A DNA stretch of 55,595 bases from Phycisphaerales bacterium (GTDB lineage Bacteria; Planctomycetota; Phycisphaerae; Phycisphaerales; SM1A02): NCBI GenBank assembly GCA_028823105.1, contig JAPKCC010000006.1, forward strand, positions 1 to 55,595. The letters are read 5' to 3'. The translations under genes and the position numbers were made by a program. The first letter of the stretch is position 1. The number at the start of each line of letters is the position of its first letter. Shown in pieces: positions 20,333 through 23,785 of this stretch. The notes under the pieces were generated by a model, which was not told the origin of the DNA, searched no databases, and saw nothing but the letters and a program-made list of their open reading frames with translations.

Positions 20333-20607
20333 GGTGTCTCCAAGGGCTTGGGAACGAATCCGGAGGCCGATCCACTCCAGAGGCGGGTCTCGGCCAGACC
20401 GCGGCTCCGCCGCGGGGGGTCGGGGACGATAGCGGATCGGGTCCAGATGGGGGGGAAAGCCAGTCGGATTCGTCGCTCCGGCTCGGAATCCGGTAGTTTC
20501 TAAGTCAGGCGGCAGGAAGCCGCTTTGTCTCCGGATAGGACCAGCTTCTCCACGAGCCGGCCCATCCCGTTCGGGTGAAGATCCGAGACCGCGTCGTGAG
20601 CAATGGA

Positions 20608-22437
20608 ATGCCGAGCACCGTGACCCCACCAACCTCCCCGAAGAAGTCCTCCGGCAAGACCGGCAGCCGTGCCACCGCCGAAGAGATGGCGTCGAAGCAA
20701 CGAGAGATCTCGGTCAGCGAGTTCTTCGCCAAGAATCGTCACTTGCTGGGATTCGACAATCCCCGAAAGGCGCTTCTGACGACCGTGAAGGAGGCGGTGG
20801 ACAATGCGCTTGATGCATGCGAGGAGGGGGGGATCCTTCCTGACATCAGGGTGGAACTCCTTCAGCTCGCAGAGACCCGATTCAAAGTCACGATTCGCGA
20901 CAACGGCCCGGGCATCGTTCGCAGGCAGATCGAGAACATCTTCGGGAAGTTGCTCTACGGATCGAAATTTCATCGGATGAAAATGAGCCGGGGTCAGCAG
21001 GGCATCGGCATCTCCGCGGCTGGAATGTACGGGCTCATGACCACCGGGCAACCGGTGCTGATCATCTCGAAGACCGGCCGCCGGAAACCCGCGCACGAGG
21101 TCCTTCTGAAGATGGATACGGCTCGAAATCGCGCCGAGGTGATCAGCGAGACGGAGCATTCGGAGGATGACCTACTCTTCGCCGACGGGCATGGAACGCA
21201 GGTCACCATCGAGCTCGAAGGCCGGTATCAGAAGGGACGCGCATCCGTCGACGAGTATCTCGAGCAGACGGCGATCGCGAATCCGCACGCTCAATTCAGC
21301 TACGTGACCCCGGCAAACGAGAAGATCGAGTATCCGAGAGCCGTCGATGAACTTCCCCCGGAAGCGAAGGAAATCAAGCCGCATCCCAAGGGGATCGAAC
21401 TCGGAACGCTCATCCAGATGCTGGAGCGAACAGAGAAAACCCAGCTGGGGGCGTTCTTCAAGGAGGACTTCTGCCGGGTGGGTCCGAGGATCGCCAAGGA
21501 GATCTGCGGATATGCCAATCTGACCGACCGCAGCTGGGTCAAGCAGGTGGGCCACACCGAAGCGGAAGCGCTCTACAAGGGGATCCAGGCGGTCAAGATT
21601 ATGTCGCCGCCCACCGATTGTCTTGTTCCGATCGGCACCAAGGCGATGCTTGCCGGACTCCTGAAGGAAGTGAAGGCAGAGTTCTTCGCGGCCAGCAGTC
21701 GGCCCGCCGCGGTCTATCGCGGCAATCCGTTCCAGATCGAGGTGGGAATCGCGTACGGCGGCAACCTGCCCGGTGATGATCTGGGGCGGGTGATTCGATT
21801 CGCCAATCGGGTTCCGTTGCTCTACCAGCAGTCGGCATGTTGTTCGTTTAAGGCGGTGATCGAAGCTGGATGGCGGAACTACGGTCTCCAGCAGGCACGC
21901 GGGAGTCTCCCCTCCGGGCCGGTGGTGGTGATGATCCACATGGCGAGTACCTGGGTGCCGTTCACCAGCGAGTCCAAGGAAGCCATCGCGGACTACGACG
22001 AGATCCGCAAGGAGATGCGTCTCGCACTCCAGGAGTGCGGCCGAAAACTTGGGACCTACCTTCGGCGGCGTCAGAAGATGCGACGGGAGTCCGAGCGTCG
22101 GAACGTCTTCACTCGCTACATCGGCGAAATCTCGATGGCGTGCGAGCGGATCACGGGATCTGATGCGGGAGGAATCCGAGACGCTCTGGAAGCCATCGCT
22201 GGCCGAAAGACCGCCGAGGCCGATCAACAACTCGACGACGAGGGACGCGTGATTGACGGCGGGGGCCGACTCGCCGTTGACGATTCGGTGATCATCATCG
22301 ATGCGTCGACCGAGAGCATCGAGGCTGGCGTGGAGGCTGAAGAGGTCGCCGAGGGTCTTTTTGCCGCCCCGACTCCACCGATGAAGACCCGGGGGAAAAT
22401 CCTCAAGAAGTCCCGCAAGAAGTCAGGCAAGAAGTAA
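20608..22437 (+). CDS. top6B: DNA topoisomerase VI subunit B
   Basis: ATPase subunit of the type IIB topoisomerase, an enzyme characteristic of archaea and plants. With ATG 20608 the product is 609 residues (a GTG at 20575 adds 11). All GHKL motifs are visible: KEAVDNALDAC (N box), IRDNGPGI (G1) and SRGQQGIGISAAGMYG (G2). An H2TH-like region follows, then the transducer domain with the switch lysine in FTSESKEAIADY. The C-terminus carries an extra segment of roughly 90 residues ending in a Lys-rich tail (LKKSRKKSGKK). It is followed after 64 bases by the A subunit, the usual B-A order. Identification is secure; presence in a bacterium is notable. Confidence 0.95.
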   Translation: MPSTVTPPTSPKKSSGKTGSRATAEEMASKQREISVSEFFAKNRHLLGFDNPRKALLTTVKEAVDNALDACEEGGILPDIRVELLQLAETRFKVTIRDNGPGIVRRQIENIFGKLLYGSKFHRMKMSRGQQGIGISAAGMYGLMTTGQPVLIISKTGRRKPAHEVLLKMDTARNRAEVISETEHSEDDLLFADGHGTQVTIELEGRYQKGRASVDEYLEQTAIANPHAQFSYVTPANEKIEYPRAVDELPPEAKEIKPHPKGIELGTLIQMLERTEKTQLGAFFKEDFCRVGPRIAKEICGYANLTDRSWVKQVGHTEAEALYKGIQAVKIMSPPTDCLVPIGTKAMLAGLLKEVKAEFFAASSRPAAVYRGNPFQIEVGIAYGGNLPGDDLGRVIRFANRVPLLYQQSACCSFKAVIEAGWRNYGLQQARGSLPSGPVVVMIHMASTWVPFTSESKEAIADYDEIRKEMRLALQECGRKLGTYLRRRQKMRRESERRNVFTRYIGEISMACERITGSDAGGIRDALEAIAGRKTAEADQQLDDEGRVIDGGGRLAVDDSVIIIDASTESIEAGVEAEEVAEGLFAAPTPPMKTRGKILKKSRKKSGKK

Positions 22438-22501
22438 CCAACCAAACCGACCGGAACCAACGGTTGAGCATTCCGCGGCCGAGCGGAGAGAGTCGAATTC
22501 A

Positions 22502-23785
22502 ATGGCACTGAAGCGGTCAGATGAACCAGGGAAGGGCGAGGCCGATTCCACCCGAGGGAAGGTCGGCGCGAAGTCCGCCGGGGCGACAAAGCCGAAGGCT
22601 GCCGCTTCTTCGAAGAAGGTGGCCAAAACGACGACCAAGACCAAGAGCAAGGTCCGAAAGATCGGTACCAAGGCCGATCAGGCTGATCGGGCTCGGGTCG
22701 ATGCGAGGACCGTTCAACGGATTGAGGCGCTCGGAGAATCAGTGGTTGGTCAGAGCCTCAAACTCACCGACCCATTCGTGGATGTTCCGACCAGATCCAT
22801 CTCGAATGTCAATTTCAACAAATCGAAACGGGTGCTCGAGATGGGCGACGCCAAGCAGCGGCGAACGCTTTTCAATCTCGGACAAGCGAAAAAGTTCATG
22901 CAGACCCTGCTGGTCGCGGACGGTTGTCGCGATCTAGTCCGGGCGGGCAAGACGCTCAGTCTTCGAGGCATGTACTACAAGTCGTTGCACACGATTTCCG
23001 GTACGAAGGAGAAAACCTTCGACGGTCAGGACGAATCGGATGTTGTGCTCGAGGATCTTGAGGTCGCGATCGACTCGCTTCGAGAGAATCTCCACGTCTT
23101 CGCCAAGAAGCGGGGGACCATGATCGGGAACATCACGGTCTTCGACAATGGCGACGAGATCAACTGTCGGCGAATGGGAACCGGGGGCTATGCCATTCCG
23201 TCCATCTGCGAGCCGAGCGTTCTGAAGTTCGGCAAGTGCGAAGCTGATTTTGTCCTTCACGTCGAGAAGGACACCGTCTGGAGCCGGTTCAACGAGGATC
23301 GATTCTGGGAGACGCACAATTGCATCCTGACCGAAGGGTCAGGCCAACCCCCGCGGGGCGTTCGACGGCTGTTGCACCGGCTCAATGCCGAACTCGGATT
23401 GCCGATCTACTGCCTCCTCGACTGCGACCCATGGGGGCATTACATCTACAGCGTCATCAAGCAGGGGTCGATCAACCTCGCGTACGAGAGCGGGCGAATG
23501 GCGGTCCCGGAAGCGAAGTACCTCGGCATCCGGTCGGACGACTATGAGCGTTGCGATCTGTCCGACGATGTGAAGATCGAACTGAATGATCGCGACCGCG
23601 AGCGGGCGAAGCAGATCGCCGCATATCCCTGGTTCGCGGATCGGCGTCACTGGCAGAAGGAGATCAAGCGGATGCTCTCCAACGGGTTCAAGATGGAAGT
23701 TGAGTCTCTGATCACCAAGGACATCTCCTATGTGACTGAGACGTACGTTCCCGAGCGACTCAAGGCGAAGGATTGGATCGACTGA
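22502..23785 (+). CDS. top6A: DNA topoisomerase VI subunit A (Spo11-like)
   Basis: DNA-cleaving subunit related to Spo11; 427 residues. The winged-helix CAP domain has the catalytic tyrosine pair in SLRGMYYKSLH (Tyr158/159), and the Toprim domain has the metal-binding acidic residues in LHVEKDTVWSRF and LLDCDPWGHYIYS, with the conserved SGQPPRGVRRLLHRL. The first 60 residues are Lys/Ala/Thr-rich (for example KVAKTTTKTKSKVRK), resembling a histone H1-like tail, and are not part of archaeal Top6A. The stop overlaps the 3' end of the convergent histidine kinase by 26 bases. Confidence 0.95.
   Translation: MALKRSDEPGKGEADSTRGKVGAKSAGATKPKAAASSKKVAKTTTKTKSKVRKIGTKADQADRARVDARTVQRIEALGESVVGQSLKLTDPFVDVPTRSISNVNFNKSKRVLEMGDAKQRRTLFNLGQAKKFMQTLLVADGCRDLVRAGKTLSLRGMYYKSLHTISGTKEKTFDGQDESDVVLEDLEVAIDSLRENLHVFAKKRGTMIGNITVFDNGDEINCRRMGTGGYAIPSICEPSVLKFGKCEADFVLHVEKDTVWSRFNEDRFWETHNCILTEGSGQPPRGVRRLLHRLNAELGLPIYCLLDCDPWGHYIYSVIKQGSINLAYESGRMAVPEAKYLGIRSDDYERCDLSDDVKIELNDRDRERAKQIAAYPWFADRRHWQKEIKRMLSNGFKMEVESLITKDISYVTETYVPERLKAKDWID

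Follow-up and report, generated by a model that had tools for sequence, protein, structure and literature searches.

A planctomycete topoisomerase VI points to a conserved Top6B core that is probably paired with one of two exchangeable Top6B tail-Top6A cassettes

An earlier note on a 55,595-nucleotide stretch of DNA from a Phycisphaerales bacterium (contig JAPKCC010000006.1; the whole stretch is called the window below) described a complete archaeal-type topoisomerase VI (topo VI) encoded by adjacent genes for its subunits, Top6B and Top6A. The locus raises the question of where a planctomycete obtained this enzyme, and whether the ATPase half and the DNA-cleaving half share one history. Topo VI is the relative that gave rise to the Spo11 machinery, and how its ATPase half controls the cleaving half is still an open question. 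We distinguish two putative modules: (i) a core, comprising the ATPase and transducer of Top6B (residues 1 to about 480); and (ii) a cassette, comprising the last part of top6B, which would encode the distal stalk and a Top6A-docking hairpin, and the whole of top6A. Our analysis indicates that a conserved core is probably paired with one of two ancient DNA-gate cassettes, [tail + Top6A], that have been exchanged, and the window would be a carrier of the cassette that we call type P.

The top6B frame is uninterrupted from either of two possible starts (Table 1). Its product matched Topo-VIb_trans in Pfam (197.5 bits, cut-off 24), the equivalog PRK04184 in NCBIfam (670.5 bits, cut-off 274) and M. 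mazei Top6B in the PDB (E 8.7e-152). Top6A matched TOP6A-Spo11_Toprim (196.7 bits, cut-off 24.1) and TP6A_N (53.5 bits, cut-off 26) in Pfam, PRK04342.1-2 in NCBIfam (530.2 bits, cut-off 465) and Saccharolobus shibatae Top6A in the PDB (E 3.2e-71). On these scores chance is excluded as the source of the family matches. The features that define topo VI are present: a GHKL ATPase and transducer in Top6B, and a winged-helix catalytic tyrosine and Toprim acidic residues in Top6A. In Top6B, N66, DNGPGI (98-103), GQQGIG (129-134) and K457 are invariant across 22 aligned homologues; in Top6A, R155, Y159, E255, D307 and D309 are invariant across 83 rows of the P and E types, of which 82 also keep E399 and one has a gap there. 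The helix-two-turn-helix (H2TH) region between GHKL and transducer is covered by a continuous alignment to 2q2e_B (residues 23-533), and helices at residues 265-328 of an AlphaFold 2 model agree with it; a separate H2TH model gave no match in the window's Top6B. The earlier note was therefore right about both intact subunits, the GHKL motifs, the transducer lysine and the Toprim residues. Its intact tyrosine pair stands for the second tyrosine, Y159; the first is often phenylalanine in P-type rows (in 9 of 22 from planctomycetes and 14 of 21 from archaea). By alignment, the first tyrosine is not essential to the family and only the second is universal. Family membership and gene content suggest that the pair forms a working A2B2 topo VI.

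Top6A, but not Top6B, falls into two classes. Against the window's proteins, Top6B identity was 46-92% in 75 planctomycete loci (best local alignments), whereas Top6A identity was bimodal in 69 loci: 41 reached at least 49%, and 28 did not exceed 36%. Type P, the window's, is DPANN/Saccharolobus-like, and type E is Methanocaldococcus-like. We drew an even sample of 392 Planctomycetota genomes. We judge the phylum to be Planctomycetota from PF07596, which we take to be expanded in planctomycetes and which was found in all 12 phylum members tried (over the cut-off in 11) and in none of 14 control genomes; four of the members tried held more than 40 copies, whereas the copy in the window's genome was single and weak. 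Across the 392 genomes, 74 Top6A were type P, spread over 22 families (E ≤ 6.2e-116, apart from one truncated at a contig end, with 4.8e-75), and 133 were non-P (best E 3.6e-61). The 28 non-P planctomycete loci placed in a tree formed a single clade, which defines type E; the other non-P genomes were typed by score only. One family, f50, had both P and non-P genomes, its non-P genome being one with no Top6A match; three genomes of that family (G070, G131 and G158) gave a weak, untyped second Top6A match. No genome among eight checked was shown to hold both types; G249 gave no match, and G014 and G050 each carried two type E copies. Two Thorarchaeota, G398 and G414, had three Top6A and three Top6B matches each, some partial.

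The same dimorphism occurs in archaea. In a Top6A tree with named archaea, P joined Parvarchaeota, Nanohaloarchaeota, Aenigmatarchaeota, Micrarchaeota, Saccharolobus and Asgard sequences, and E joined Woesearchaeota and Methanocaldococcus; the two are deeply separate clans with other archaea in between. We sampled 211 genomes of a DPANN phylum, of which 193 had a match, 86 P-like and 107 E-like, separated by a gap from E 3.5e-83 to 2.0e-54. These Nanoarchaeota-like genomes are about 0.5-2.3 Mb, and their P-type loci reach 54% (Top6A) and 57% (Top6B) identity to the window's. The genes were adjacent in all 40 DPANN loci first fetched, in the B-A order of the window. Among the P rows, those of planctomycetes and archaea were interleaved; the planctomycete E rows lay inside archaeal E, beside G522 and G533 (Shimodaira-Hasegawa-like approximate likelihood ratio support 82-98 along the path), a placement that points to DPANN donors. 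The trees thus support descent of the bacterial topo VI from a DPANN (Nanoarchaeota-like) enzyme by an old transfer; it appears old because the locus composition is not foreign and the gene is widespread in the phylum. The earlier note had named a tree nested in one archaeal clade with foreign composition as evidence against its reading; of the archaea sampled, those closest to the pair beyond its own phylum are indeed DPANN, but the other half of that description does not apply. We note that in some planctomycete loci (L054-L058, of the same class, families f6-f8; L061; L073) Top6A lies elsewhere in the genome, and that the genes beside those unlinked top6B, where scanned, are phosphomannomutase-type or others.

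We compared the history of the Top6B core with the type of its partner. Trees and the approximately unbiased (AU) test used residues 1-478 as the core; careful trees used 63 hand-picked rows of 95 and later 115 of 134, and eight short, fused or redundant loci and G437 were left out before counting. In the 63-row core tree, P and E holders were intermixed, with 12 type changes, and a single E clade was rejected (log-likelihood 268 worse, p-AU 1.8e-41). The 115-row tree had 19 type changes, of which 8-9 are forced by well-supported branches, with a bootstrap not fully settled. Well-supported groups that combine the two types are, among others, the P rows G442, G453, G478, G481 and G516 with the E row G588 (support 100/100), G523 (P) with G584 (E) (99/97) and, among planctomycetes, L121 (P) with L054 (E) (96/98). 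In 33 mixed-type pairs, Top6B was at least 60% identical and Top6A only 32-38%. Core and cassette are discordant. A single Top6A swap inside the bacterial phylum was considered and dropped, since the named archaea and 40 DPANN loci are equally dimorphic.

The discordance stops at a boundary near codons 480-490, beyond which Top6B follows the type of Top6A. Type-specific Top6B columns cluster at residues 489-537 in planctomycetes and archaea alike, and the mean Jensen-Shannon divergence between P and E was 0.35-0.37 from residue 481 on and 0.04-0.12 elsewhere. Mean identity per residue block (600 random pairs of each kind) was equal for same-type and mixed pairs at 450-459 (90 and 90%) and 470-479 (71 and 71%), and parted to 55 versus 28% at 500-509 and 34 versus 14% at 530-539. 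Residues 489-537 predicted the Top6A type in 88 of 88 leave-one-out trials, against 55-69 for nine other Top6B segments of equal length. With 20-residue segments and 127 rows, ten core segments gave 68-100 right; the count then rose from 94 (465-484) through 111 (475-494) to 127 (485-504), staying at 125-127 thereafter, and all 14 Top6A segments gave 122-123 of 123. Nucleotide identity in seven close mixed pairs was 63-83% over codons 470-479 and 33-43% over 490-499. When core identity was held at 70-80% (G645 being incomplete in this comparison), same-type pairs (n=106) had median identities of 54 in the tail and 70 in Top6A, and mixed pairs (n=53) 27 and 35. Tail and Top6A are concordant, and in the window both are type P. 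A core history that ignores the Top6A type and a tail that follows it make [tail + Top6A] look like one exchangeable cassette. Gyrase does not explain the two tails in the phylum, since 384 of the 392 genomes have a GyrA-type gene.

We next consider where the boundary lies in the protein. In the AlphaFold 2 model of the window's Top6B (mean predicted local distance difference test score, pLDDT, 76), a stalk helix spans residues 464-516 and a hairpin helix 520-534; pLDDT is under 50 at 542-546, 550-556 and 568-609. According to PMC13040014, M. mazei Top6B docks Top6A through the hairpin that follows the stalk. By this analogy and the modelled helix positions, the boundary would fall mid-stalk, ahead of the Top6A-docking part. 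A single crossover near codon 480, in a conserved transducer/stalk segment, would swap the cleaving subunit and the docking hook that fits it in one step, since top6B usually precedes top6A. Homologous recombination is the cause that we infer, with hybrids that would be active at once. The modular pattern is well supported in two phyla, and the mechanism is probable. We lean, with somewhat less assurance, toward a broader view in which topo VI, in DPANN archaea and in planctomycetes, is a machine of two modules that recombine in nature, with the tail as a portable partner-recognition code; that crossovers in the stalk exchanged cassettes many times (19 type changes among 115 cores) is part of this view and is held with the same modest confidence. 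The natural swaps would then form a large, ready-made set of hybrids, in which about 55 residues are flagged as a partner-specificity element.

Several observations weigh against exchange of an intact cassette. Full-length Top6B trees had only five type changes on 95 rows and three on 63, and E-holders as one clade were not rejected (p 0.084); this partial split by type follows from the type-specific columns clustered at 489-537. On the planctomycete core alone, neither a single P clade (p 0.127) nor a single E clade (p 0.135) was rejected, so these tests do not fix the number of swaps inside the phylum. A same-type control pair also dropped in DNA identity, from 87 to 53 at codons 490-499, where it stayed above the mixed pairs, and later down to 30; hence fast evolution of the tail is not confined to mixed pairs. 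Beyond the two phyla, the tail rule is patchy. Tails of Hadesarchaea and FK5, whose Top6A is non-P, were nearer P by 7 and 6 points, the S. shibatae tail was nearer E by 4 (P 28, E 32), LFW283 and B88 showed no P/E difference, and of another 24 archaea whose Top6A is non-P, 22 were mildly P-ward in a P/E tail model. Inside the two phyla the rule is clean.

The main rival is that Top6A was swapped alone and the Top6B tail later adapted to its new partner, which we regard as possible but distinctly less probable. The tail is the region that contacts Top6A in M. mazei (PMC13040014). In several E-type families top6A is unlinked from top6B and the tails are nevertheless E-type where readable, so that selection on the interface acts too. 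The tail also correlates with the core when Top6A is held constant (partial r 0.50 for P, 0.34 for E), and among archaeal E rows the tail-Top6A correlation given the core was 0.22, a value reached by 124 of 2,000 permutations. Against adaptation stands the extent of the signal, since discrimination was 125-127 of 127 in every 20-residue segment from 485 on, beyond a few contact residues. Over all rows of each type, the tail-Top6A partial correlation given the core was 0.38 (P) and 0.32 (E), reached by none of 2,000 permutations in either case. Moreover, tails fit the Top6A clan even where cores are distant: those of three Micrarchaeota and of Aenigmatarchaeota and Nanohaloarchaeota, all with P-like Top6A, were nearer P by 10-16 points, and the Methanocaldococcus tail nearer E by 11, with the cores equidistant. 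Transfer of the tail with Top6A is favoured over co-adaptation, although not proven.

A second rival, the published reading, is that two or more intact A+B pairs passed from different archaea to bacteria without subunit exchange. In PMC11302465, bacteria form two clusters in the A tree and likewise in the B tree, and our own data contain a close cross-domain whole pair (planctomycete L072 and archaeal G522, 69% identical in B and 76% in A). The full-length careful Top6B tree united planctomycete E rows with G522 and G533 (99/98), a grouping that was not rejected on the core either (p 0.127) and so also counts against our reading. We consider this improbable as the whole account: without the tail, P and E intermix and the single E clade is rejected, and the 33 mixed pairs combine similar Top6B with dissimilar Top6A. 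Two intact-pair transfers as the full story were dropped, as the P/E split dissolves once the tail columns are removed. Intact transfers probably also occurred, yet they cannot account for the discordance. That the window's pair is a non-functional or accessory remnant without a role is very improbable, given that its catalytic residues are intact and do not vary among relatives, that most of the family has kept the synteny, and that a second GyrA/ParC-type gene occurs in 17 of 204 genomes with topo VI versus 102 of 180 without, a difference that holds within families.

Topo VI is common in this phylum. The earlier note had taken topo VI to be only sporadic in bacteria, which fails for this phylum: we found the Top6B transducer in 210 of 392 genomes and Top6A in 207. 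Topo VI largely excludes a second GyrA/ParC-type gene there. Genomes with topo VI had one such gene in 187 cases and two or more in 17, and those without had 78 and 102, respectively (Fisher p 8e-26 over 384 genomes, eight without a PF00521 match left out; related genomes are not independent). By majority state, 46 of 92 families had topo VI and one GyrA-type gene, 22 no topo VI and two, 15 no topo VI and one, five topo VI and two, and four other states. Within the 13 families that vary, the association persisted (Cochran-Mantel-Haenszel p 1.6e-4), with six as expected, two contrary and five flat. In family f4, of the window's own order, all nine genomes lacked topo VI and held one GyrA-type protein with the box motif and one without. 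The distribution amounts to a natural experiment on topo IV substitutes in bacteria, and it shows gene traffic between DPANN archaea and planctomycetes.

Some genomes depart from this pattern. In the 15 families whose majority has neither topo VI nor a second GyrA-type gene (e.g., f27, f37 and f47), gyrase may be the sole type II topoisomerase, and G159 (98% complete) is in the same state within the otherwise topo VI-bearing family f2. Six genomes (G092, G023, G107, G162, G173 and G110) have topo VI and a second PF00521 protein; the box was shown to be absent only in that of G092, which pairs topo VI with a boxed GyrA and a box-less second copy, and G110 has a GyrA-box-like motif in both copies. 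If its ParE is confirmed, G092 would extend the coexistence of topo VI and topo IV to planctomycetes, a state called exclusive to Pseudomonadota and Terrabacteria in the part of PMC11302465 available. In families f67, f76, f87, f91 and f92, the Top6B transducer was matched in two pieces, probably owing to a long insert, perhaps the helical bundle noted there for Planctomycetes-Verrucomicrobia-Chlamydiae (PVC) bacteria.

The source genome (3.35 Mb, 97% complete; the window is its contig 49) holds one GyrA-type and one GyrB-type gene by PF00521 and PF00204 searches. The GyrA-type product has QSRGGKG at residue 839, which we take to be a GyrA box. The earlier note had asked whether gyrase and topo IV coexist here; gyrase stands beside topo VI, and topo IV was not found in the genome, which has one match to each profile and a box in the PF00521 protein. 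Neither type IIA domain was matched in the Top6B/Top6A pair. With only a boxed GyrA-type and a GyrB-type gene present, topo VI probably stands in for topo IV. Judging from families and gene content, it would carry out, beside gyrase, the decatenation and relaxation that topo IV handles in most bacteria. The gene order is sigma factor-ndk-top6B-top6A-histidine kinase-cold shock-pnp-rpsO. It is largely kept in the window's own family (13 other members sampled), where ndk adjoins top6B in nine of ten other loci fetched, and little kept in other families of the order. GC content over the locus (0.595-0.612) matches the rest of the window; as the earlier note observed, there is no sign of a recent island.

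Table 1. Features of the topo VI locus, in positions of the window
Feature	Position	Strand	Notes
top6B, topo VI subunit B	20608..22437	+	609 aa from ATG; in-frame GTG at 20575; Pfam, NCBIfam and PDB matches
Top6B core, residues 1-480	20608..22047	+	GHKL ATPase, H2TH region, transducer, first part of stalk
Top6B residues 450-490	21955..22077	+	conserved block 450-480, then boundary 480-490; proposed crossover zone
Top6B switch-loop lysine K457	21976..21978	+	invariant in 22 aligned sequences
Top6B tail, residues 485-540, type P	22060..22227	+	distal stalk helix and helical hairpin
Top6B C-terminal 69 residues	22228..22434	+	acidic, then Lys-rich; mostly low model confidence
top6A, topo VI subunit A, type P	22502..23785	+	427 aa; frame, Pfam, NCBIfam and PDB matches
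Top6A catalytic tyrosine Y159	22976..22978	+	aligned with M. mazei Y106
Top6A Toprim E255	23264..23266	+	invariant in alignment
Top6A Toprim D307 and D309 (DCD)	23420..23428	+	invariant in alignment

Parts of this picture are already published. Allen & Maxwell 2024 (PMC11302465) likewise reported topo VI accompanied by gyrase but no topo IV in five planctomycete families, and an archaeal origin by transfer with two bacterial clusters, from which at least two whole-enzyme transfers were inferred on 17 bacterial sequences. The available part of that paper is silent on A/B discordance, on a tail that follows Top6A and on the frequency of topo VI in the phylum. PMC9348778 finds that Top6B varies most at its C-terminus between archaeal clades, and links this to gyrase. 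Neither A/B discordance nor an exchangeable unit of tail and Top6A was reported in the literature searched, with subscription papers and supplements outside the search. The novelty is a Top6B core lineage that occurs with either Top6A type, and the exchangeable tail-A cassette.

The characterized enzymes illustrate both modules. M. mazei topo VI (PDB 2Q2E, 9O0G and others) shares the domain order of the window's Top6B (510 bits over 511 residues), whereas its Top6A is of a different clan (161 bits). S. shibatae topo VI (PDB 2ZBK) is the reverse: its Top6A is of the window's clan (244 bits, with the Toprim VEKD motif), but its Top6B is much more distant (287 bits), with a tail no closer to P than to E. 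The window's pair is unlike Topo VIII, in which B and A are presumably fused in one chain, as it consists of separate genes beside pnp, rpsO and ndk. In the text available, PMC11302465 places Topo VIII on free or integrated plasmids; it also gives M. mazei Top6B an extra immunoglobulin-like C-terminal domain, of which the window's model has no sign, and describes the B partner of the Spo11/topo VIB-like complex as lacking H2TH and having a degenerate ATPase, unlike the window's Top6B with its intact GHKL and H2TH regions.

We also searched mobile elements. Only three plasmid records matched Top6A, all haloarchaeal; phage records gave no Top6A match, and the pattern VEKDAVF matched 19 times in viral contigs, none of them Top6A. 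Four IMG/VR contigs (L146, L147, L149 and L150) have very divergent Top6B-like frames (37-69 bits to a Top6B profile). Three of these contigs also bear a Top6A-like frame with a weak score (22-26 bits) and may encode viral topo VI-like pairs. A 482-kb contig catalogued as viral (L151, IMGVR_UViG_3300028558_000016) has a Top6B of 494 bits adjoining a Top6A of 198 bits. A 34.7-kb contig, likewise catalogued as viral (L145 and L148, IMGVR_UViG_3300037657_000197), carries a type P top6B-top6A pair whose Top6A is 60% identical to the window's.

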